From Lentisphaerota bacterium (GTDB lineage Bacteria; Verrucomicrobiota; Lentisphaeria; Victivallales; Victivallaceae), in assembly GCA_015061525.1 (NCBI GenBank), contig SUWK01000007.1:1-62274 (forward strand): 62,274 bases of DNA, in the 5' to 3' direction. This document shows, piece by piece, positions 16,564 to 60,986 of the stretch (positions are counted from its first letter, which is position 1; each line of letters opens with the position of its first letter). The translations under genes were made by a program, and so were the position numbers. The notes beneath the pieces were generated by a model. The model had not been told where the DNA came from. It ran no database searches and saw only the letters and a program-made list of their open reading frames with translations.

Positions 16564-17367
16564 ATGCGTATCGAACTGCGGAACCATCCGGAAAAATCCC
16601 CGACCGGCAATCCGGCAGAAGATTTTCAGCCGTATCTTGACACTTATCTCATTGATGCTTCACGCAATGTGTTGGGCGGTATACTCATCCTGCCCGGCGG
16701 CGGATACCATCACCGGGCTTTTCATGAGGGCGAACCTGTTGCCAGAAAGTTCAATGAACTCGGCTACCATGCCTTTGTTTTACAGTACCGGGTGGCTCCC
16801 TACCGCTACCCTGATCCGATCCGTGATGTTGCCCGGGCGATCAAACTGATCCGTTCCCATGAGCAGGAGTGGTATCTGGGAAAACTTGCGACTCTCGGTT
16901 TTTCCGCAGGCGGCCATCTGGCGGCGGCGGGAGCCATGGCGGCTGATACGGTCAACTGCGATGAAGGTGATAAAGCTGATGCTGCTTCCACCGCGATCGA
17001 TGCGATGATCCTCTGCTATCCGGTGATCGGTATTTCCGGCGGTTTCGGTCATGTCGGCAGCGGGGAGAATCTTTTCGGGGAAAATTCAACTCCTGCCGAA
17101 CGGGAAAAACTGGATATGCACAAACTGGTCACTGCTGACACTGCCCCGGCGTTTCTCTGGCACACTGCTGATGATCCGGTGGTTAATATCGCCAACTCCA
17201 CGGAGTTTGCCAAAAACATGTGGGCGTGCGGAAACACCTGCGAACTGCATGTCTTCCCCCACGGTCCGCATGGCAGAGGACTCGGTCTGGGAGCTAAAGA
17301 TTTGAAAAAATGGCCGGAACTGGCGGCAGATTTTCTGGAAAACAGTGCCGGTTTCACCAGAGCATAA
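16564..17367 (+). CDS. Alpha/beta hydrolase, esterase-like
   Basis: 267-aa hydrolase of the BD-FAE/acetyl-xylan-esterase-like type. It has an oxyanion segment GGILILPGGGYHHRA, the nucleophile elbow GFSAGGHLAAA and, near the C terminus, TADDPVVNIANS (acid) and FPHGPHGRG (histidine). No signal peptide is visible, so it is cytoplasmic. A GAGG lies 8 nt before the start. Deacetylation of sugar esters is the usual activity of close family members; the real substrate is unknown. It was probably once directly followed by gltA, before the inverted-repeat element at 17374 inserted just after its stop codon. Confidence 0.85.
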   Translation: MRIELRNHPEKSPTGNPAEDFQPYLDTYLIDASRNVLGGILILPGGGYHHRAFHEGEPVARKFNELGYHAFVLQYRVAPYRYPDPIRDVARAIKLIRSHEQEWYLGKLATLGFSAGGHLAAAGAMAADTVNCDEGDKADAASTAIDAMILCYPVIGISGGFGHVGSGENLFGENSTPAEREKLDMHKLVTADTAPAFLWHTADDPVVNIANSTEFAKNMWACGNTCELHVFPHGPHGRGLGLGAKDLKKWPELAADFLENSAGFTRA

Positions 17368-17373
17368 GAATTA

Positions 17374-17681
17374 GATAATGTCCCAAATTTTGTGAAACTC
17401 AAGCAGGAGTTTATAGACAAACATTTCTATTAACGTATAAAAATATCACATAAGTTGTGATTTGTCAAACCGGTGAAACACCGGCTTGATCCAATCGGTG
17501 GATGCATCCGTCTTCGCTTACGCTACGCCGCGACAAGGCGTGCGGCAATGTCGTGTTTTGCGACGAGTACGGTGCGGGAGTGTACGAGCGTACTCGACCG
17601 CACCGGCACAGGAACAAGGCGCGAGATTGACCACGAAGCACCACCGCCGGTTCGATTTTTCACAACAATTGAGACAATACC
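17374..17681 (+). mobile_element. 308-bp MITE-like element with TIRs and 8-bp target duplication
   Basis: The left end, AATGTCCCAAATTTTGTGAAA (17376-17396), matches the inverted right end in 17 of 21 positions. The element is flanked by AAGAATTA at 17366-17373 and 17682-17689. Removing the element plus one duplication puts the gltA ATG, with its AAGGA, 12 nt after the remaining AAGAATTA and about 18 nt after the hydrolase TAA, a compact operon junction. It encodes no recognisable protein; an apparent 72-codon extension of gltA into it is repeat sequence. The interior holds GC-rich hairpins, including CGAGTACG/CGTACTCG. A second copy is split at 53830-53904 and 60912-60986. Confidence 0.8.
17414..17441 (+). 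promoter_or_regulatory. Candidate promoter carried by the MITE, reading toward gltA
   Basis: TAGACA (17414-17419), 16 nt and TATAAA (17436-17441). Both hexamers and the spacing are preserved in the second copy of the element (53869-53896), although that is also expected from shared ancestry. Confidence 0.45.
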
Positions 17682-50010: not shown

Positions 50011-50039
50011 TTGAAAAAACAGCTTTTTGATGATATGTT
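50011..50039 (+). promoter_or_regulatory. Promoter of the aroQ-accBC operon
   Basis: TTGAAA (50011-50016), 17 nt, TATGTT (50034-50039), about 48 nt before the aroQ ATG. Confidence 0.6.
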
Positions 50040-52914: not shown

Positions 52915-53850
52915 ATGAGTGAAAAATGTGCCGTTTGTCCGCGCCGCTGTCAAGCGGCGCGTCCTTTTTCTGCTGCCGGAGCTGTGGAATTGCCGGGGGT
53001 TTGCCGCTGTCCGTACAACGCGGTCGTTTCCGGTATCGGTCTGCACCATTGGGAAGAGCCGGTCATCAGCGGTGACAGAGGCAGCGGAACAGTGTTTTTT
53101 GCCGGATGCAATCTGCACTGTGTCTTTTGCCAGAATCACGCGATAAGTTCAGGTTGTTCCGGAAAAGAGTTTACTGCCGGATCACTTCGCGAGCTCTATT
53201 TGGAATTGACCGGTAAAGGAGCGCACAACATCAATCTGGTTACGCCCGGTCACTTTGTGCCGGTGATCGCGGAATCATTGAATGATCCTCTGCCGGTACC
53301 GGTAGTTTACAACAGCAACGGCTATGAATTGCCCGAAACGCTCCGGATGATGGAGAATAAAGCGGATATCTATCTGCCGGATTTGAAATATATCGACAAC
53401 TCCCTTGCTCTGCGCTACAGTCAGGCAAAAGATTATTTTGAAGTTGCCGCTGCTGCGATTGACGAAATGTACCGCCAAACGGGGGATTTCATTATCGGTG
53501 ATGACGGATTGATGAAGCGTGGAGTGATAATCCGCCATCTGATATTGCCCGGAGCGTTGGAAAATACCCTGCGGATAATTGAATACGTCGCAAAAAAATA
53601 CCGGCCGGGACAGGTGATGTTCTCGCTGATGCACCAATATCTGCCATGCGGTCTGGTTTCAGAGGAAAACTATCCGGAACTCAACCGCAGAATCACCGAT
53701 TTTGAATACGAAACTGCAGAAGCTGCCCTTTTTGCTTCCGGAATTGAGGACGGATTTGTACAGGATTCGGATTCTGCGGTCAAAGATTACATCCCGCCAT
53801 TTATGGTTTCTTTCAGTTCAAAAGAAAGTGATAATGTCCAAATTTTGTGA
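52915..53850 (+). CDS. Radical SAM protein (PflA-like, COG1313 type)
   Basis: 311 aa. N-terminal cysteine cluster CAVCPRRC, then GTVFFAGCNLHCVFCQNHAI with the CxxxCxxC motif that binds the [4Fe-4S] cluster and S-adenosylmethionine. VVYNSNGYE, YLPDLKY and GVIIRHLILPG are typical of this uncharacterised PflA-related family, often annotated as pyruvate formate-lyase activating enzyme. The start is ATG 52915. The last six residues (DNVQIL) and the stop codon are encoded by the inserted repeat element that begins at 53830, so the native C terminus has been altered. Confidence 0.88.
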   Translation: MSEKCAVCPRRCQAARPFSAAGAVELPGVCRCPYNAVVSGIGLHHWEEPVISGDRGSGTVFFAGCNLHCVFCQNHAISSGCSGKEFTAGSLRELYLELTGKGAHNINLVTPGHFVPVIAESLNDPLPVPVVYNSNGYELPETLRMMENKADIYLPDLKYIDNSLALRYSQAKDYFEVAAAAIDEMYRQTGDFIIGDDGLMKRGVIIRHLILPGALENTLRIIEYVAKKYRPGQVMFSLMHQYLPCGLVSEENYPELNRRITDFEYETAEAALFASGIEDGFVQDSDSAVKDYIPPFMVSFSSKESDNVQIL

Positions 53851-53904
53851 AATTCAAGCAGGAGTTTATAGACAAACCGTTCTATTAACGTATAAAACAT
53901 ATCA
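53830..53904 (+). mobile_element. Left half of a split MITE-like element
   Basis: Closely matches 17374-17447 of the complete copy before gltA, including the end GATAATGTCC and the run GCAGGAGTTTATAGACAAAC. It stops at AACATATCA (53896-53904), where the composite transposon begins, and the sequence resumes at 60912. The element end also lies in the 3' end of the radical SAM gene. Confidence 0.8.
53869..53896 (+). promoter_or_regulatory. Candidate promoter in the split element, now cut off from its gene
   Basis: TAGACA (53869-53874), 16 nt, TATAAA (53891-53896), the same as before gltA. Before the insertion it would have read toward the EamA gene at 61006; it now points into the transposon, where the first genes are antisense. 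Confidence 0.4.
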
Positions 53905-53966
53905 CACTGCTGTCCGGTAAAAATTTCAGAGCAATAATGGGCTGAAATTTTTACCGGACAGCAGTG
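53905..53966. mobile_element. 62-bp palindromic mini-IS (solo IS4 ends), left edge of the island
   Basis: The first 42 bp are identical to the left end of the IS4 at 59934, and the last 20 bp, ATTTTTACCGGACAGCAGTG, match its right end with one difference. The result is an IS reduced to both terminal repeats (CACTGCTGTCCGGTAAAAAT inverted). Left flank AACATATCA; right flank ATACAAAAT, so it has no target duplication of its own. Confidence 0.85.
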
Positions 53967-54007
53967 ATACAAAATAAAATTTTCTCATTTTAACCAACCT
54001 CGTGATT

Positions 54008-54448
54008 TCATTCAGAATCGCGCTTACTGTTAACATCAGCTTGAGCTTTGGCGGCGGCCTCAGCCTCACTTTCAGTTGGTTCTGCGCTCCCTCCTTTTTG
54101 CACGTTGATATGCACTTTCCAATCGCCATCGACTTTTACCAGAGCCAATGCCGCTTTGCCATCGATGATGATCTGGGCGACATCTCCATCAATAAATACC
54201 TCCGAATTCGCAACCTGCTGTAAATGTGCCTCAAAGGTGGCGCGATGTTCAGCATTTTCAGCCATATCTTTGATAATAGTCTCGTTGACCTGATGGGTTT
54301 CCGGTGAAGAATAGTTGTTGGCGGCTGCCAAATCGCCATTTATAATCGCTTCGCCCCATTTTTGAGCGACCTGCTGCGGAGTTTCAGCACAACCGGACAT
54401 GATCAACATACACCCCAACACACTCAATGCCATCAGAAACTTTTTCAT
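54008..54448 (-). CDS. DUF4878-like lipoprotein 1
   Basis: 146 aa. Signal peptide with lipobox ending at Cys20 (MLIMSGC). The mature part matches the DUF4878 pattern: TPQQVAQKWGEAIINGDLAAANNY near the N terminus, then a beta-rich end (IDGDVAQIIIDGKAALALVKVDGDWKVHI). The last 25 residues are charged and Ala-rich. Clearly a paralogue of the protein encoded at 54601-54984 (shared MKKFL start, VAKWGEA, VDGDNA/VKVDGDW). Function unknown; it has its own promoter. Confidence 0.75.
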   Translation of the reverse strand: MKKFLMALSVLGCMLIMSGCAETPQQVAQKWGEAIINGDLAAANNYSSPETHQVNETIIKDMAENAEHRATFEAHLQQVANSEVFIDGDVAQIIIDGKAALALVKVDGDWKVHINVQKGGSAEPTESEAEAAAKAQADVNSKRDSE

Positions 54449-54486
54449 ATCTTTGCCTTTCCCGGTTACAGTCGGTAATCTTTTAT

Positions 54487-54515
54487 ACTATAACCGGTCT
54501 TGCTGATTTATGCAA
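54487..54515 (-). promoter_or_regulatory. Promoter of lipoprotein 1
   Basis: On the minus strand TTGCAT (54510-54515), 17 nt, TATAGT (54487-54492), about 40 nt before the start codon. Confidence 0.55.
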
Positions 54516-54516
54516 A

Positions 54517-54564
54517 TAAAAAAACCGGTTTTCAAAAAACAAGGCGGGATATTTTGAAAACCGG
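54517..54564 (-). terminator. Rho-independent terminator of lipoprotein 2
   Basis: CCGGTTTTCAAAA (54525-54537) pairs with TTTTGAAAACCGG (54552-54564), a 13-bp stem, followed on the minus strand by eight T's (54524-54517). It lies 36 bp after the stop of the upstream lipoprotein gene and just before the promoter of lipoprotein 1. Confidence 0.88.
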
Positions 54565-54600
54565 AAATATTGTCAAGGTAAAATCACCTTAAAAAATTTT

Positions 54601-54984
54601 TTACTCTTTCTCCCCGCTGTCATCTTTTGTATGCACAAGAGATTTCAAATCGATCAGCCATTTGCCGTCAACTTTTTTCAAGCGGACTTCGGTTTTGCCC
54701 TCAACTTTAATTTCAGCATTATCGCCGTCAACCACAATTTCTCCGGACTGGTATTCATCCAATTTTTTTCTTGTTTCCACTTTTTTATCCTCGTCAGAAG
54801 CAAGCAGAATTATGAGACCATTTAGCTTTTTGGATTCATCGGTAACCAATTCATCCGCAGCGGCCTTATCACCAGCCAGAACAGCTTCGCCCCATTTTGC
54901 CACCACATCTTCCGGAGCATCTCCGCAGCCGGTCATGACAAAAACACTGACAAATGCCATCAACATCATCAAAAACTTTTTCAT
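54601..54984 (-). CDS. DUF4878-like lipoprotein 2
   Basis: 127 aa from the ATG at 54984, preceded by GAGG; an upstream in-frame ATG at 55071 would put a non-signal-like stretch first. Lipobox ends at Cys20 (VFVMTGC). Mature domain: APEDVVAKWGEAVLAGDKAAADELV, then EIVVDGDNAEIKVEGKTEVRLKK and a final VDGKWLIDLKSL, the DUF4878 layout. A paralogue of lipoprotein 1, separated by a terminator and promoter. Function unknown; probably outer- or inner-membrane anchored. Confidence 0.75.
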   Translation of the reverse strand: MKKFLMMLMAFVSVFVMTGCGDAPEDVVAKWGEAVLAGDKAAADELVTDESKKLNGLIILLASDEDKKVETRKKLDEYQSGEIVVDGDNAEIKVEGKTEVRLKKVDGKWLIDLKSLVHTKDDSGEKE

Positions 54985-55030
54985 TTCAACCTCTTTCTTT
55001 ATTGATATTCCCCGCCCTGAAATGTTCAGT

Positions 55031-55058
55031 ATTATATGGGGCTGTTGCAAAACCTCAA
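55031..55058 (-). promoter_or_regulatory. Promoter of lipoprotein 2
   Basis: On the minus strand TTGAGG (55053-55058), 16 nt, TATAAT (55031-55036). The -10 is perfect. It overlaps the hairpin at 55040-55081. Confidence 0.5.
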
Positions 55059-55247
55059 AAAAGGTGAGCAACAGCCTTTTTCTATTGTTTGATTTGTAAC
55101 ATCCAGTTCATTGCGCCGTAATTTATTACTCAATCCCGAATCAATCTCATCAAGCGTACTGTAATCTTTTTTCTCAAGCGCATCAATCACCATCAGTGCA
55201 GTAGTTCTGGCGCACCCCCATTCCGCTTTCTTTACGATGCGACATTC
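55032..55247 (-). pseudogene. Remnant ORF without a good start, unknown family
   Basis: An open frame of about 71 codons reads RIVKKAEWGCARTTALMVID and then ALEKKDYSTLDEIDSGLSNK. It looks like real protein sequence but has no plausible start with a Shine-Dalgarno, a stop just upstream, and it runs through a hairpin at its end. It is probably the 3' scrap of a lost gene. I do not recognise the family. Of the surrounding gap, 55248-55367 shows nothing else. Confidence 0.3.
55040..55081 (+). repeat. Hairpin resembling an IS end or terminator
   Basis: GGCTGTTGC (55040-55048) pairs with GCAACAGCC (55068-55076), with an inner ACCT/AGGT stem and a T5 tract on the plus strand. No plus-strand gene precedes it. 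GGCTGTTGCAAAA-type ends occur on several IS families, so it may mark another insertion scar. Confidence 0.4.
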
Positions 55248-55367
55248 TCATTTCACATATCGCAAAACTTCATTCAACACAAAAATCGCAATTATAAAAC
55301 AAACAAAGAAAGTCACCAATAAACTGATACAACAGAAATATATTTCCGATCTTTGCCGCCATTGCTG

Positions 55368-55814
55368 TCAATTTTGAAACAAATTACCTTCTGCATCCTT
55401 ATCCACGGTGCAAACTTCTATTATCACCCAGATCCAAACTGCAACCAATGGCAGAACTAACCAACCGACAAGCAAAGAAATCAGCAACTGCGCCACACCG
55501 CGACCGCTATATCCGGCATAAAAATTATGAATCCCCAGACCACCCAGAAAAATACCGAGCAAAATATATGTTATCCGTTGTTTGGGCGCAACCGCTCCTG
55601 CTGCAGAGGAAAAATTATTTCCAGCAGGAACAATATTTACCCCTGAACCGGAAACAATATTGACTGCCGGTTTTGATTCATTTTTCATCTCGGTCACAAT
55701 ACGCAGAGCCGGATCGACGATCTCGCCGCAATAACGGCATTTTTTTGCAGAAACATTGATTTTTTCAGCACAAAACGGACATTGCACCATATTCACATTG
55801 TTTTCTTCAGACAT
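55368..55814 (-). CDS. Zinc-ribbon and TM2 domain membrane protein
   Basis: 148 aa. An N-terminal zinc ribbon with CPFC (12-15) and CRYC (26-29), a polar linker, then a TM2 domain (about 78-145) with two membrane helices and the hallmark GGLGIHNFYAGYSGRG between them. TM2 proteins are widespread and mostly uncharacterised. The start overlaps the end of the Lgt-like gene by 22 nt, so they are cotranslated. Third gene of the operon with the structured leader. Confidence 0.85.
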   Translation of the reverse strand: MSEENNVNMVQCPFCAEKINVSAKKCRYCGEIVDPALRIVTEMKNESKPAVNIVSGSGVNIVPAGNNFSSAAGAVAPKQRITYILLGIFLGGLGIHNFYAGYSGRGVAQLLISLLVGWLVLPLVAVWIWVIIEVCTVDKDAEGNLFQN

Positions 55815-56563
55815 AATTCTTTCTCCATTGATTTTATTTTACACAGCCACCACACACCTGTAATTCCCAATATCAAACTTATCCATTGAGACGGAGATAA
55901 AAAATTGGATAAAAAAATCCCGCGTTCATCATCTCTCAAAAATTCCAATACAAATCTGCCAGCCGGCATAAGAATCAAATACCACGCCCCGCGATGTTTG
56001 AAACGGATCAAGCCAAACAATATTATGAATACAACAAACAAATATGCGCTTTCATAAAGTTGTATTGGCACAAGCGGCGTTGCTCCGTGATGAATATAAG
56101 GAACGGAACCGGGTGGATAACTGACTCCCCATATTTTTGCCGGCCGGCCATAACAACATCCGCCCAAAAAACAACCGATCCTGCCCAAGGCTTGAGCAAA
56201 AGTAAACGACGGTAAAAATAAATTTAACAAATAAGCATATTTCAAACCGGATATCCGGGAATAGATCAAAAGAAAAAGCATCCCCCCGGTCAGCCATCCG
56301 AAAAATGTCAACCCATATCCAAACGGATTGACAAACAATGCATTCACACCTCCCCGGAAAACAGCATCAGCGATGTAACCGCCTGCAACACCAAATATAA
56401 AGACAAAGGGAATGGCGGACATCAACAAATTTTCCCGTTCTGCCGACACCCTCATTCCCTTTAACTGATTAAAAATCAAAAAAGCAGAAGCTAATATTCC
56501 CATCCCGGTAAAAAATGGAAACATCGCAATTTTTTGTCCCCAAAACTCAAGATAGCGAAACAT
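55793..56563 (-). CDS. Prolipoprotein diacylglyceryl transferase-like protein
   Basis: 256 aa with about seven membrane helices. The Lgt signature is present as ALGRIGCFLGGCCYGRP (125-141), and HGATPLVPIQLYES is the second conserved segment. Lgt moves diacylglycerol from phosphatidylglycerol to the lipobox cysteine of prelipoproteins. The GCF..GCCYG variant differs from E. coli GRIGNFING. Two lipoproteins are encoded 0.8-2 kb away in the same island, so a dedicated lipidation role is tempting but unproven. If the genome also has a chromosomal lgt, this is an accessory copy. Confidence 0.82.
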   Translation of the reverse strand: MFRYLEFWGQKIAMFPFFTGMGILASAFLIFNQLKGMRVSAERENLLMSAIPFVFIFGVAGGYIADAVFRGGVNALFVNPFGYGLTFFGWLTGGMLFLLIYSRISGLKYAYLLNLFLPSFTFAQALGRIGCFLGGCCYGRPAKIWGVSYPPGSVPYIHHGATPLVPIQLYESAYLFVVFIILFGLIRFKHRGAWYLILMPAGRFVLEFLRDDERGIFLSNFLSPSQWISLILGITGVWWLCKIKSMEKELCLKKTM

Positions 56564-56584
56564 AAATGCTCCTGCTCCGCAACA

Positions 56585-56992
56585 TCAATTAGCACGTTTT
56601 TTATTCAAAATTGAAACGATCCCGCTGGCAATATAAAGACCGCCGGTCGCAGTCCCCCAAAGCATACTGCCAAAACCGATAAAACCGTTTATCAGAATAA
56701 AAATACCTCCAAGCAGTACAATCAAACCGGTAACAAAAGAATTTTTGCTTTTTCCCATAAAAGAAAGAGCAAAGCAAAGAATACTCACTAATACAATAAA
56801 CCAGAAATATCCGGCAGAGCCACTGCCGTCACCGCCTGCGGATTCTTCCACGGCCACAGACACTCCTGCACAAATCATTGCACAAAAGGAGTTTGGAAGA
56901 CTGGTAATAAAACCGATCAGACCGCAAATCCACGCTGCATTTGATTTTTTCTTTTCGACATTGACCATTACCGTCACACCCGAGTTTTCCAT
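56585..56992 (-). CDS. Small membrane protein of unknown function (about four helices)
   Basis: 135 aa. A short polar N terminus, then hydrophobic segments near 22-48, 62-80, 85-105 and 110-128, the last two rich in glycine (VLLGGIFILINGFIGFG). An acidic, Gly/Ser-rich loop lies between helices 1 and 2. No family is recognised with confidence; DUF4064-like proteins have a similar look. AGGAG precedes the ATG. First gene of the operon with lgt and TM2. Confidence 0.7.
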   Translation of the reverse strand: MENSGVTVMVNVEKKKSNAAWICGLIGFITSLPNSFCAMICAGVSVAVEESAGGDGSGSAGYFWFIVLVSILCFALSFMGKSKNSFVTGLIVLLGGIFILINGFIGFGSMLWGTATGGLYIASGIVSILNKKRAN

Positions 56993-57060
56993 AATACTTC
57001 TCCTTTTTTTGTTTTATGGATTTTTCAATTTTCTCACCTCGAGAAAAAAGCCTCTTTGTA

Positions 57061-57223
57061 CCGGCACAAAAAAAAGATGCGCCGCCTTGGCTGTGTCAAT
57101 CGAGGGTACTTGCAAAACCCGGAACTCCACAACAGCAAAACCGCGCATCCATTATTCCCAGTATACGGGTATGGATACACTGATTCAAGCGTGCCGGAGT
57201 TCCAAATAAAAAAGGTTGCAAGT
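57061..57223 (-). promoter_or_regulatory. Structured leader with alternative hairpins (riboswitch or attenuator candidate)
   Basis: Between the promoter at 57316-57344 and the ATG at 56992 lies a leader of about 317 nt. Fold 1 (antiterminator-like, minus-strand sense): 57216-57223 with 57108-57115 (ACTTGCAA) plus GGAACTCC, 57196-57203 with 57121-57128, enclosing an ATCCAT/ATGGAT hairpin. Fold 2 (terminator-like): GATGCGC 57133-57139 with 57076-57082, followed by T8, and an outer CCGGCAC 57191-57197 with 57061-57067. Segments of the two folds cross and overlap, so they exclude each other. Confidence 0.5.
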
Positions 57224-57315
57224 TTTTCGATCAGAACAGCACTTTTTTCAGTTTTAAGATGTCAAATTTATTTTTTTAACTGCTTTTAAAACCTCCTTTC
57301 AAAGCTATTTGTAAT

Positions 57316-57344
57316 AATATAGTTCTCAAAAAGTATTTTGTCAA
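57316..57344 (-). promoter_or_regulatory. Promoter of the membrane protein-Lgt-TM2 operon
   Basis: On the minus strand TTGACA (57339-57344), 17 nt, TATATT (57316-57321). Identical hexamers and spacing to the strong promoter at 30288-30316. Confidence 0.7.
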
Positions 57345-57552
57345 ACAGTTTTTTGACATCAATTAGTTTTGCATTGCGTGTTTTTATGAGTTAAGCTTTC
57401 CCCCGGATCAACACACTTATTCTTTGAGTATATAATCGGAAAAACATCCGGCAATATGACATGAAAATCAAATATTTTCAGAAAATTTTTATTCTGCTTG
57501 ATTTTATTCCTGATCACATGTATATTGGATTGTCTGACAAATTATCCGGATC
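57345..57552. other. AT-rich region upstream of the sigma factor gene
   Basis: No gene. A TATAAT near 57431-57436 with a poor -35 (TCAACA) could start the sigma-kinase transcript; further downstream only AT-rich sequence is seen. If the sigma factor is autoregulated, its own promoter would lie here and need not look like a housekeeping one. Confidence 0.3.
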
Positions 57553-58143
57553 ATGATCATGTATACAACAAGAAGTACTCTTTTACATAAACTGCAAAAT
57601 AACGATTCCGTCGGATATCAGGAATTTTACACGGTCTACCGCAATCTCATCTACAGTACCGCATTGAAAAGCGGTGTCCCGGCAGCAGATACCGATGATA
57701 TTATTCAGGCTGTGATGCTTGGAATATTCAACAACGGCTCATTTCTTTATTCCAAGACAAAACACGGCCTTTTCCGCACTTATCTCGGCGGTGTAATCCA
57801 TCATAAAATCTGTGATTACTTCCGCAACTGCCCCCCTGCCCCGGAAAAAGCGGCTCCTGAAGAAAAGGCACGTGCTGATTTTGAAGAAATATTCAACGCA
57901 GAATACCGTTCAAATCTGCTTGAATTGGCCATTGATGAGTTGCGCCGGAAAGTTCAACCGGAAGTATTTGAAACTTTTGAACTTTGCTTCCGGCGCAATC
58001 TCTCTGATAAAGAGGTCGCCATGTTACTTAACGCCAAACCCAACACTGTCACCATCCGTAAAAAACGGTGTCTGGAAACTTTGCGCACAATCATCACCCA
58101 ACTGAAAACTGCCGATCCGGAACTTGATCTGCCAATATTATGA
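57553..58143 (+). CDS. ECF-type RNA polymerase sigma factor
   Basis: 196 aa. Region 2-like N terminus (GYQEFYTVYRNLIYSTALKS, ADTDDIIQAVMLGIF, then the FRTYLGGVIHHKICDYFR segment contacting -10 DNA) and region 4 helix-turn-helix (LSDKEVAMLLNAKPNTVTIRKKRCLETL). It lacks region 3, as in ECF sigmas. The gene overlaps the following kinase gene by 4 nt (ATGA). Sigma/kinase pairs like this are common in the PVC group, where the kinase is thought to control the sigma factor; here that is inference. Confidence 0.88.
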   Translation: MIMYTTRSTLLHKLQNNDSVGYQEFYTVYRNLIYSTALKSGVPAADTDDIIQAVMLGIFNNGSFLYSKTKHGLFRTYLGGVIHHKICDYFRNCPPAPEKAAPEEKARADFEEIFNAEYRSNLLELAIDELRRKVQPEVFETFELCFRRNLSDKEVAMLLNAKPNTVTIRKKRCLETLRTIITQLKTADPELDLPIL

Positions 58144-59477
58144 ATATCGATCACCTTGCCCCGCCGCCGGAATTGCCGGCCGGCTTGTCTATGATCTGCC
58201 GCATCGGTCTCGGAGGTGCCGGAGATATCTTTATGGTTCAGGATATTACCGGTAAATTCCTGGCCCTGAAATCGATCAATTCCAGATGGCAGCAAAAAGA
58301 ATTTGATGCTGTTTCCATTTTGCGCGATCTGCCGGCGCATCCGGCAGTCACTCAAATCTATCAAACCGGAAATCTGCCGGATGGCAATTTTTTCTACACC
58401 ATGGAACTGGCCGACAATGCAGGTTCAGAAAATTCATACCGCCCCGACACCCTGGCATACCGTATCGAATCTGACCGGATGACAACCGGAGAAATCCTGT
58501 CGATCATGCTGAATATTGCATATGGGATCCGCCACTTACATGATCATAACGTATTTCACGGAGATATCAAACCGGAAAATATTATTTTTATCAACGGTCA
58601 GGCAAAACTTTCCGACTTCGGCACACTTTCTGCCGACGGCAACTCCGGGACCGCCGGATTTATCCCCGCCGATCCGCAATCAGGATACGACAGGGATTGT
58701 TACGCTCTGGCCAAAACCCTTTATTGTGCATACAGCCGTAATGATGCCGCAAAATACCCTTCTCCACCGGAAACGATCAATCCCGGAGAATTTAAAATCA
58801 TCCGAAAACTTTATATCACCGGATGTGCCGATCATCCGAAAAAGAGATTTTCCTCAATAACAAATTTGATAAACTCTCTGGAGCTGGCGACCTCAAGATT
58901 TGAAAATCCGGAAAAAGTACCATACCGGATTTGGCAAATTTCCATTCCGGCAATCATAACTTTACTCATCGCCGGATTAACTGTTTTCTTTTTCACCGGC
59001 ACCCCAAAAAAACGCACTCTTTCAGAAAAATCCTTGATGACAACTCCTCCGGACAGTGCATCTCCGGACATCGATCAACGTGAATTAAATCTTGCCAGAA
59101 CTCTATTCAACAATACGTTGGACTATAATGGCGAAATTCCCGGATTACATCCCCGATTCCGGCAGATTTTTGAGGCGGTTTATCAAACCATGCCGGAAAA
59201 GCTGGATAATGATTTCAGTCGGCAATTCCGCTCTTTTTATCAGGATTACGAGTGCTTCACGCAACTGCGCGACCGTTTAAATTCCCCGGAGATCAGTGAC
59301 CGGGAATTTCTCCGGCTTTACAACAGCAGCAAGTATATGGAGTTATATTGCAATCTGCGCAACCGGAGTTACGAAATCCATACAGAACAAAACAGTAAAC
59401 CGATGAACCAAATAATCCGACTCTATTTTGCCAACCGGCTCAATACCCCCCCGCAAGACGAATCCCATGCAGAGTAA
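58140..59477 (+). CDS. Membrane-anchored Ser/Thr protein kinase (Hanks type)
   Basis: 445 aa. Kinase domain (about 15-255): glycine loop IGLGGAGDIF (22-31), Lys44 in LALKSI, catalytic HGDIKPENI with Asp142 (HGD rather than HRD), and SDFGTLS with DFG at 159-161. The C-lobe is short and the activation segment compact. One membrane helix (about 266-286) follows, then an outside domain of about 155 residues rich in aromatic and charged helices, presumably the sensor. It is coupled to the sigma factor gene. Its last 38 bp overlap the end of coaX on the other strand. Confidence 0.88.
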   Translation: MNIDHLAPPPELPAGLSMICRIGLGGAGDIFMVQDITGKFLALKSINSRWQQKEFDAVSILRDLPAHPAVTQIYQTGNLPDGNFFYTMELADNAGSENSYRPDTLAYRIESDRMTTGEILSIMLNIAYGIRHLHDHNVFHGDIKPENIIFINGQAKLSDFGTLSADGNSGTAGFIPADPQSGYDRDCYALAKTLYCAYSRNDAAKYPSPPETINPGEFKIIRKLYITGCADHPKKRFSSITNLINSLELATSRFENPEKVPYRIWQISIPAIITLLIAGLTVFFFTGTPKKRTLSEKSLMTTPPDSASPDIDQRELNLARTLFNNTLDYNGEIPGLHPRFRQIFEAVYQTMPEKLDNDFSRQFRSFYQDYECFTQLRDRLNSPEISDREFLRLYNSSKYMELYCNLRNRSYEIHTEQNSKPMNQIIRLYFANRLNTPPQDESHAE

Positions 59478-59933
59478 AAAATTCATCGGACAGAAAAGCT
59501 TCCGGAAATGACGGTGCAAAATATTTTCCATCTCCGCCGGTCAAAATCACCGTCAATGCCGGGTATATTTTCAGCAGCACCGACAACCACTCCCGAACCA
59601 CGCCAATTATTCCGGCATCAACTCCGAAACGTATTGCATCAACAGTATTGCGGCCAATTTTTTCCGGGATGTCAATTCCCAGCGGAATTTCCGGCAGCTG
59701 GGCAGTACCGGAAGCCAGAGCCTGACGCAGAAGTTTACGGCCGGGCGCGATCGCACCGCCGACAAAACGGTATTTTTCATCGATCACTTCCAAAGTGACC
59801 GCCGTACCGCAATCGATCACCGCCGCCGGAAGTTTATAAAATTCTGCCGCAGCGATCGCATTTGCCACCCGATCCGCCCCCAATGTCGTACCGTCTACCG
59901 GGGAAAAATCAACTTTAGAGTGATGATTAAGAG
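59440..59933 (-). pseudogene. coaX: Type III pantothenate kinase, 5'-truncated by the IS
   Basis: The open frame runs from the IS junction and reads KVDFSPVDGTTLGADRVANA, then AAVIDCGTAVTLEVID, FVGGAIAPGRKLLRQAL and VILTGGDGKYFAPSF, all in CoaX positions. The N-terminal third, with the DxGNT phosphate-binding motif, is missing; about 164 of 250 residues remain. The lost part is not on the other side of the IS, so the truncation happened before the island arrived here or by rearrangement. Not expected to be active. Confidence 0.85.
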
Positions 59934-60911
59934 CACTGCTGTCCGGTAAAAATTTCAGAGCAATAATGGGCTGAAAAGTTCCTCTTGGACTGGCAAATTC
60001 CAGTTTGGCGGCTTTTCAAGGATTTTTCGGTCAAGCGACAAGACTTCCAGCAATGATTGGTTTTGCATAAAGGTATCACGAATACGGTTTGTCAGCTTCG
60101 TCATCCCCAACTTGAACCCATGCAGAAATTTGAGATAGGCAATCAGCAGATAATGGATCATTGCCACCCAAATTTGCGACATTACAGCGTTTTCGCTTGT
60201 CCCGAGAAAGCTTTGGATTTTCAAATTCTGTTTGATCCATTTGAAAAAGAGTTCGATTTGCCATCTTTGTTTGTAAATATCTGCGATTGAATACGCTGCA
60301 ATGCGGAAATTGTTGGTAATAAACTGATAAGTTTTTCCGCTTTCTCCGTCCCGAAACTCAATCAGACGCAGTTCTCCCGGGTATTTCTTCACCGACTGAA
60401 AACCTGTGTACCAAATGATTTCATCCCGCAAAACACTAAGTTTTTTATTTGGTTCATGATGCTGTCCGAGAAATTCGTGGAGCGTATGCCATAACGCGAT
60501 CAAGGAGTTCTTCAAACAATGCTTTGAATATTTCCGGATTACGGCGGTTCATCGCTTCGGAAAGCGTGGATTTTGCCACGGCTTCTATGCCAAGGTGATA
60601 AAGCCGTTTGTGGTTGGCAAGCAGAGCGTTTTCAATTTCCCGCAAAGAATCCTTGCCGGAAATTTGAGCAAAGAGCAAGGTTAGAAATTGTTTCCATGCG
60701 GTGAAATGCTTACAGTATCGGTCTCCGCCTGACTTATTTTACGATTTTTTAAAACGATATCGGGGAATGAAGTTGAAAAGTTGAGAATAGATGCTATTGT
60801 AATACGCTGTTCGGGACTTTCGTGTTAAATATTAAAGATTTGAGCGTTTTTAATATATAACAAGTCCCGACAATTTCAATTAACTCCGGTAATTTTTACC
60901 GGACAGTAGTG
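59934..60911 (-). mobile_element. IS4-family element, internally deleted (978 bp)
   Basis: Left end CACTGCTGTCCGGTAAAAAT at 59934, right end ATTTTTACCGGACAGTAGTG finishing at 60911. The left flank is GATTAAGAG and the right flank AACATATCA, so this IS alone has no target duplication. At 978 bp it is about 400 bp shorter than intact relatives with a DUF4372 plus DDE transposase. Of the rest, 60778-60890 and the gap 60987-61005 hold no gene. Confidence 0.85.
59955..60777 (-). pseudogene. IS4 transposase relic (nonsense codon, frameshift, internal deletion)
   Basis: The N-terminal part reads FIPRYRF, then a TAA at 60739-60741, then GGDRYCKHFTAWKQFLTLLF and DSLREIENALLANHKRLYHLG (DUF4372 type). 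The frame then changes near 60490 and resumes at QHHEPNKKLSVLRDEIIWYT, followed by the YREK motif in YKQRWQIELFFKWIKQ. Roughly 130 residues that should hold the first two catalytic aspartates are absent. It cannot make an active transposase, so movement would need an intact copy elsewhere. Confidence 0.88.
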
Positions 60912-60986
60912 AACATATCACATAAGTTGTGATTTGTCAACCAAGCCGGTACGGGTTTGATTTTTCACAACAATTGAGACAATAAT
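60912..60986 (+). mobile_element. Right half of the split MITE-like element
   Basis: Starts with the duplicated AACATATCA, continues CATAAGTTGTGATTTGTCAA as in 17448-17467, and ends GATTTTTCACAACAATTGAG then ACAATAAT like the right end before gltA. The middle is much shorter than in the 17374 copy (about 20 bp instead of 185 bp). It directly precedes the EamA gene. Confidence 0.78.

Follow-up and report, generated by a model that had tools for sequence, protein, structure and literature searches.

A putative 7-kb composite transposon in a Lentisphaerota genome, bounded by a folded-back end and a deleted copy of an IS4-family element

The window analysed here, a stretch of 62,274 bp from contig SUWK01000007.1 of a Lentisphaerota bacterium, contains a 7,007-bp unit (53905-60911) with the 9-mer AACATATCA directly outside both of its outer ends. 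The unit consists of a 62-bp fold-back of the left end of an insertion sequence (IS), a cargo unrelated to that IS and an internally deleted copy of the same IS4-family element (Table 1). The cargo carries two lipoprotein-like genes, a zinc-ribbon/TM2 gene, a second lgt, a small membrane-protein-like gene, genes for an ECF-type sigma factor and a Ser/Thr protein kinase and, up against the IS, a truncated coaX. Before the sigma factor gene lies a noncoding stretch whose mean column identity reaches 80% over six sequences, whereas the adjoining kinase is less than 50% identical in some. Its predicted fold has long helices with 42 pairs, one of them changed on both sides, and an unfavourable covariation term, and it had no match in Rfam; it is possibly an undescribed structured RNA.

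Table 1. Positions of the unit, its boundaries, its cargo and its target in the window.
Feature	Position	Strand	Basis
MITE-like target, interrupted, left part	53819..53904		89.9-91.6% identity to copy at 17363-17468
Target duplication, left copy (AACATATCA)	53896..53904	+	9-mer at outer left end
62-bp fold-back of IS left end, outer left end of unit	53905..53966		arm matches to IS left end
Cargo, 5,967 bp	53967..59933		GC 43.1%, rest of contig 51.0%
Lipoprotein-like gene 1	54008..54448	-	no Pfam family; 64% to L009
Lipoprotein-like gene 2	54601..54990	-	no Pfam family; 85% to L008
Zinc-ribbon/TM2 protein	55368..55814	-	PF05154
Second lgt (prolipoprotein diacylglyceryl transferase)	55793..56563	-	PF01790; distant lgt on C31 (36%)
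Small membrane-protein-like gene	56585..56992	-	conserved beside lgt in G011, G001
Conserved noncoding stretch, possible structured RNA	57068..57280	+	conservation
ECF-type sigma factor	57553..58143	+	PF04542, TIGR02937
Ser/Thr protein kinase	58140..59477	+	PF00069
coaX fragment (type III pantothenate kinase), 5' part cut by IS	59440..59933	-	PF03309; reads up to IS end
Internally deleted IS4-family copy, 978 bp; right end is outer right end of unit	59934..60911		ends and transposase remnants
Transposase C-terminal remnant	59955..60515	-	NF033592 positions 220-331, 102.1 bits, below cut-off 115
Transposase N-terminal remnant, another frame	60454..60678	-	NF033592 positions 35-96
Target duplication, right copy (AACATATCA)	60912..60920	+	9-mer at outer right end
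MITE-like target, interrupted, right part	60912..60984		matches 17440-17468 and 17649-17679

An earlier reading made from the sequence only had held that the flanking IS cannot produce its own transposase, and this was borne out: in comparison to ISAbe18, residues 106-223 are missing, the first part contains a stop and there is a change of frame. The missing part presumably held the first two catalytic residues of the DDE enzyme. The remnants match PF01609 and have NF033592 as their best model, with a score that stays under the cut-off as only a fragment remains. The outer left and outer right ends of the unit are complementary at 20 of 21 bp, and 9-bp target repeats occur at G002:C53, at G002:C42 and around the window unit; both features fit the IS4 family, whose target repeats measure about 9 bp. 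ISAbe18-like IS4 elements from Acinetobacter plasmids are 42% identical over 146 residues to the C-terminal part of the transposase, and are intact and distantly related, whereas the window IS is deleted.

Matches to the IS were present in 9 of the 34 genomes of the genus, none of them an intact copy, and a helper transposase therefore has to be assumed, although this absence is weak evidence because draft assemblies often lose intact IS copies. Among the matches listed, the longest open frame is the window's own (197 aa), with the exception of a distant relative (33% identity, 411-aa frame). We rejected a deletion common to the window IS and the 992-bp copy at G017:C38, as their middle sequences differ. 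Scans of IMG/VR with the transposase, the 62-mer, the 35-mer described below and a 27-bp left end yielded nothing usable, and a plasmid search returned 299 records, all below 60% identity. A 46-bp remnant of the same IS (93%) lies at 289-334 of the window, near the start of the contig.

The left boundary element, too short for any gene, is a 62-mer with perfect 25-bp arms. It had been taken for a solo pair of terminal repeats, yet it is no plain pair of left and right repeats: the left end of the IS is matched over 43 bp by the left arm and over 25 bp by the right arm when this is read inward, whereas against the right end either arm meets a mismatch after just 4 bp. The 62-mer is a fold-back of the IS left end and not a left-right deletion product. 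The left end carries a short inverted repeat, TTTCAG...CTGAAA, and fold-back copying at this place gives exactly this 62-mer, possibly by intrastrand template switching. End pairs spaced as in the 62-mer, with at most two mismatches per end, were found in 2 of the 34 genomes, the window's and G010, a second species, in which 1,857 bp with an ankyrin-repeat gene separate an identical 62-mer from the left IS end that follows it; the IS in G010 is truncated, so that an outer repeat cannot show there. That IS copy is also interrupted by a second small repeat family, GGTGCCATTCTAT...ATGGCACCAATTA (L171 near 6107, G010:C28), which borders the relatives of the cargo in L008 (780-1800) as well. In the window, both boundary elements are non-autonomous, as in units bounded by miniature elements and mobilised in trans.

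A similar inverted repeat, TCCGGTAA...TTACCGGA, is present in the right end of the IS, and its fold-back product is a 35-bp palindrome that we found in 3 of the 34 genomes (G001, G002 and G011), with a further decayed copy in G001. At G001:C26 a perfect palindrome stands in place of the first 35 bp of a right end and leaves the following 35 bp as they were, an indication that the end was altered in situ from a template. G011 has a second block with the lgt, small protein and TM2 genes (L098, G011:C7, 54240-56100), whose home copy is on C32; this second block begins right at such a palindrome, is 85% identical to the window at the DNA level over 1,474 bp and on its other side runs into a different kind of IS. 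The start of this second block at a right-end palindrome suggests that the lgt block has been moved by this IS more than once.

Turning to the flanks, we confirmed that the same 9-mer lies exactly outside both outer ends, of which that at 53905 is of the left type and that at 60911 of the right type, the normal pairing for an IS. As had also been claimed, the inner flanks ATACAAAAT (53967-53975) and GATTAAGAG (59925-59933) match neither each other nor the outer flanks, leaving the target duplication outside the whole and absent from the inner ends. On the + strand of the window AACATATCA occurs only at these two places, its reverse complement occurs once, at 50031, and only 9 of 2,000,000 random pairs of places in this contig have a common 9-mer. 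Joining the outer flanks does restore a known repeat element, with one base of difference: the joined sequence is 91.6% identical over 107 columns to the copy at 17363-17468 and 96.8% identical over 31 columns to 17649-17679. The 17-kb copy has about 180 bp extra in its middle and is without the C of AACATATCA; a further copy in G011 (L067, between asp23 and a radical SAM gene) is continuous through the insertion point and equally without the C. This extra base is present in both copies of the 9-mer and therefore probably predates the insertion. The empty site is thus one inferred from paralogous copies of the repeat. Neither the EamA gene nor any cargo gene was found in the radical SAM stretches of seven relatives, two of which (in G014 and G021) reach a contig end less than 300 bp downstream, and we rejected the idea that the cargo is native to this spot. 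Another radical SAM gene of this kind (G000:C113:14014-14871) is 62% identical and has no accC or asp23 adjoining; most relatives have one radical SAM copy at that search threshold.

Where does the cargo come from? The home order of these genes is lipoproteins-sigma-kinase-coaX-pilC-gspE in L009 (G014) and typA-lgt-small protein-sigma-kinase-coaX-pilC-gspE in G011, and the host has a separate, complete coaX on C9, adjoining pilC and gspE. Over the common part, the coaX fragment of the cargo is 87.3% identical to that of G014, 80.0% to that of G011 and 75.0% to the host's own, which in turn is closest to that of G001 (79.9%; pairwise identities). Because the complete coaX that the host retains differs from that of the cargo, we rejected a simple move within the host genome. 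By its gene order and identities, the cargo appears to be a core-gene cluster of a lineage other than the host's. The comparison of GC content proposed by the sequence-only reading does separate inside from outside, yet we rejected it as proof of foreign origin and regard it as weak evidence, because the home cluster is low as well in L066 (42.4% against 48.2% in its surroundings) and differs little from its surroundings in L009 (46.6% against 47.6%).

Over 2,473 bp, the part of the cargo with the sigma factor and kinase genes shares 99.35% identity with a contig from sheep colon (L008, JAFVPG010000234.1), whose ppdK is only 84.5% identical to the host's in DNA over 631 bp; we therefore rejected that L008 belongs to the host's species. 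These two values imply either a recent passage of the cargo from one species to another or a stretch of the contig that does not belong to the host. L008 is the cargo's closest relative but, having neither the lgt part nor any IS end, can be no more than a cousin of the donor segment. Its ppdK protein is 94% identical to that of the window's host, and the contig is probably misbinned, as its own genome has a second ppdK, 59% identical. The window contig as such is the host's own. Contamination was rejected because, of eight core genes taken from the contig, seven are confined to C6 in G000; DAHP synthase, the eighth, is also present on C121, and a second copy exists as well in four of the five relatives of the same genus that were searched (G014, G001, G011 and G020, not G021).

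Target repeats of the elements in relatives were read by eye, in stretches covering part of the IS ends found. Among single elements with both ends, an exact 9-bp repeat flanks 1 of 13 (G002:C53, with TTATCTGAT on either side), and it flanks two of the four longer pairs, namely the window unit and G002:C42. The latter (L176, 1090-2952) is a 1,863-bp unit in the sister species that has GTTTTTTAT outside only and is made up of a 478-bp IS derivative, a 402-aa gene that belongs to no Pfam family and a right-end stub of 125 bp. The pairs at G001:C65 and G017:C47 are without a repeat. The former (L174, 15572-18505) holds a C5-cytosine DNA methyltransferase gene (PF00145) and a 238-aa gene between pieces of the same IS, with no matching outer repeat. 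Clean repeats are thus scarce, from which we conclude that IS ends in these drafts are commonly rearranged or misassembled.

Tn10 and Tn5, composites of the IS10/IS50 type, resemble the window unit in their IS4-superfamily ends, their 9-bp repeats and the use of the outer ends, and differ from it in that at least one IS makes active transposase, which neither end element does here. Transporter IS carry passenger genes inside a non-autonomous IS derivative. The same arrangement is described, in the accessible part of the source, for mobile insertion cassettes (PMC5444012), to which the unit at G002:C42 is most similar; the window unit, unlike cassettes and transporter IS, spans 7 kb and has two separate end elements. 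Published examples exist of units that have miniature elements as boundaries and are moved in trans (PMC13367494, PMC5444012 and the review PMC10969869, as far as their accessible parts go), and composites whose ends are miniature and non-autonomous form an established class. The TIME-COMPs, including the integron mobilization unit (IMU) structures, share with the window unit a cargo enclosed by short non-autonomous elements, direct repeats that flank the entire structure and a transposase acting in trans, which for our unit is inferred (PMC13367494, accessible sections). Their boundaries are formed by a single Tn3-derived miniature element present twice, and their repeats measure 5 bp (same sections), whereas the window unit, whose transposase remnant is of the IS4 family, has a fold-back and a dead IS, 9-bp repeats and core genes as cargo. 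A literature search for names beginning with Lentisphaer together with insertion sequence and composite transposon found nothing, and a single-end palindrome serving as a transposon boundary was not found among the open-licence papers listed.

We consider a 7,007-bp composite transposon, moved in trans as one block, the best account of the locus, with a probability of roughly 0.6, because of the left and right types of the outer ends, the repeat confined to the outside, the foreign cargo and the second unit in G002. The IS would have entered coaX in the donor lineage, and a second left end, some 6 kb distant, would have given rise to the fold-back through intrastrand templating at its internal short inverted repeat. 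Transposase from an intact copy elsewhere may then have brought the left and right outer ends together, so that the block was cut out and pasted into the host MITE. The restored repeat, the host contig, the 62-mer of G010 and the lgt block at a 35-bp palindrome in G011 support this account. Against it speak that a donor whose coaX was broken by the IS would need a second coaX in that cell, that the helper transposase is assumed, that the stretches of the seven relatives, two of them cut short by contig ends, gave no orthologous empty site and that L008 has neither an IS end nor the lgt part. Our confidence in joint movement is moderate mainly because clean repeats are so scarce. The composite transposon of the sequence-only reading hence stands as the best reading, in line with the repeat at G002:C53 and the cargo from another lineage, and with three corrections, which concern the nature of the 62-mer, the repeat as direct evidence of joint movement and the rarity attributed to such ends. 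The outside-only repeat is strong evidence, yet the pattern would look no different had an IS resident in the MITE taken up the cargo afterwards; and the unit was called unusual for its ends, a kind already in print (PMC13367494, accessible part).

Such a capture, in which the IS lay in the MITE with its 9-bp repeat and the cargo came between later, seems to us rather unlikely, even though one step would explain both the fold-back and the outside-only repeat. The cargo could have come by recombination with an IS-carrying circle or by template switching, in which copying would enter the left end, fold back at TTTCAG/CTGAAA and run from a donor left end through the cargo to a second left end. 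In the window as in G010, the left end of the unit's IS faces the cargo, and the palindrome at G001:C26 is a fold-back change in place; circle integration beside a resident element has moreover been proposed for MITESen1 units (PMC13367494, accessible part). The non-matching inner flanks speak against a simple circle with one IS, though not against template switching; a further point against capture is G002:C42, which has an outside-only repeat without any fold-back element. Misassembly is improbable in our view: a plain IS with its 9-bp repeat would sit in the host MITE, and the assembler would have inserted a segment of a second species at common IS ends. The near-identity of the sigma-kinase part to a contig of another species, the position of both joints at IS ends and the few clean repeats around IS elements in these drafts would agree with this, but the assembler got through all 978 bp of the IS, the contig belongs to the host, and the fold-back joint needs reads carrying it. 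As the same 62-mer is present in a second assembly, that joint is real sequence at least in G010. Finally, two unrelated IS events with 9-mers identical by chance would be favoured only by the AT-rich target, and the rarity of matches between random pairs and the restoration of the repeat, which contradicts chance, make this extremely improbable.

Beyond the single unit, we put forward, as a speculative and rather doubtful idea, that this IS4-type element keeps making one-end palindromes in the genus, which with a helper transposase may serve as boundaries carrying core genes between species. Each end has an imperfect inverted repeat, from which the left end would give a complete end pair of 62 bp and the right end one of 35 bp; the genes carried would be the lgt/sigma/kinase cluster, ankyrin-repeat genes and perhaps the methyltransferase. 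Should capture or misassembly be right after all, the locus would be a warning against taking outside-only repeats as proof of joint movement. If the idea of one-end palindromes is true, it would show concretely how a single IS end can give rise to miniature elements, and leftover ends would be able to transfer clusters of core genes among species of an uncultured gut lineage without a resistance gene playing any part.
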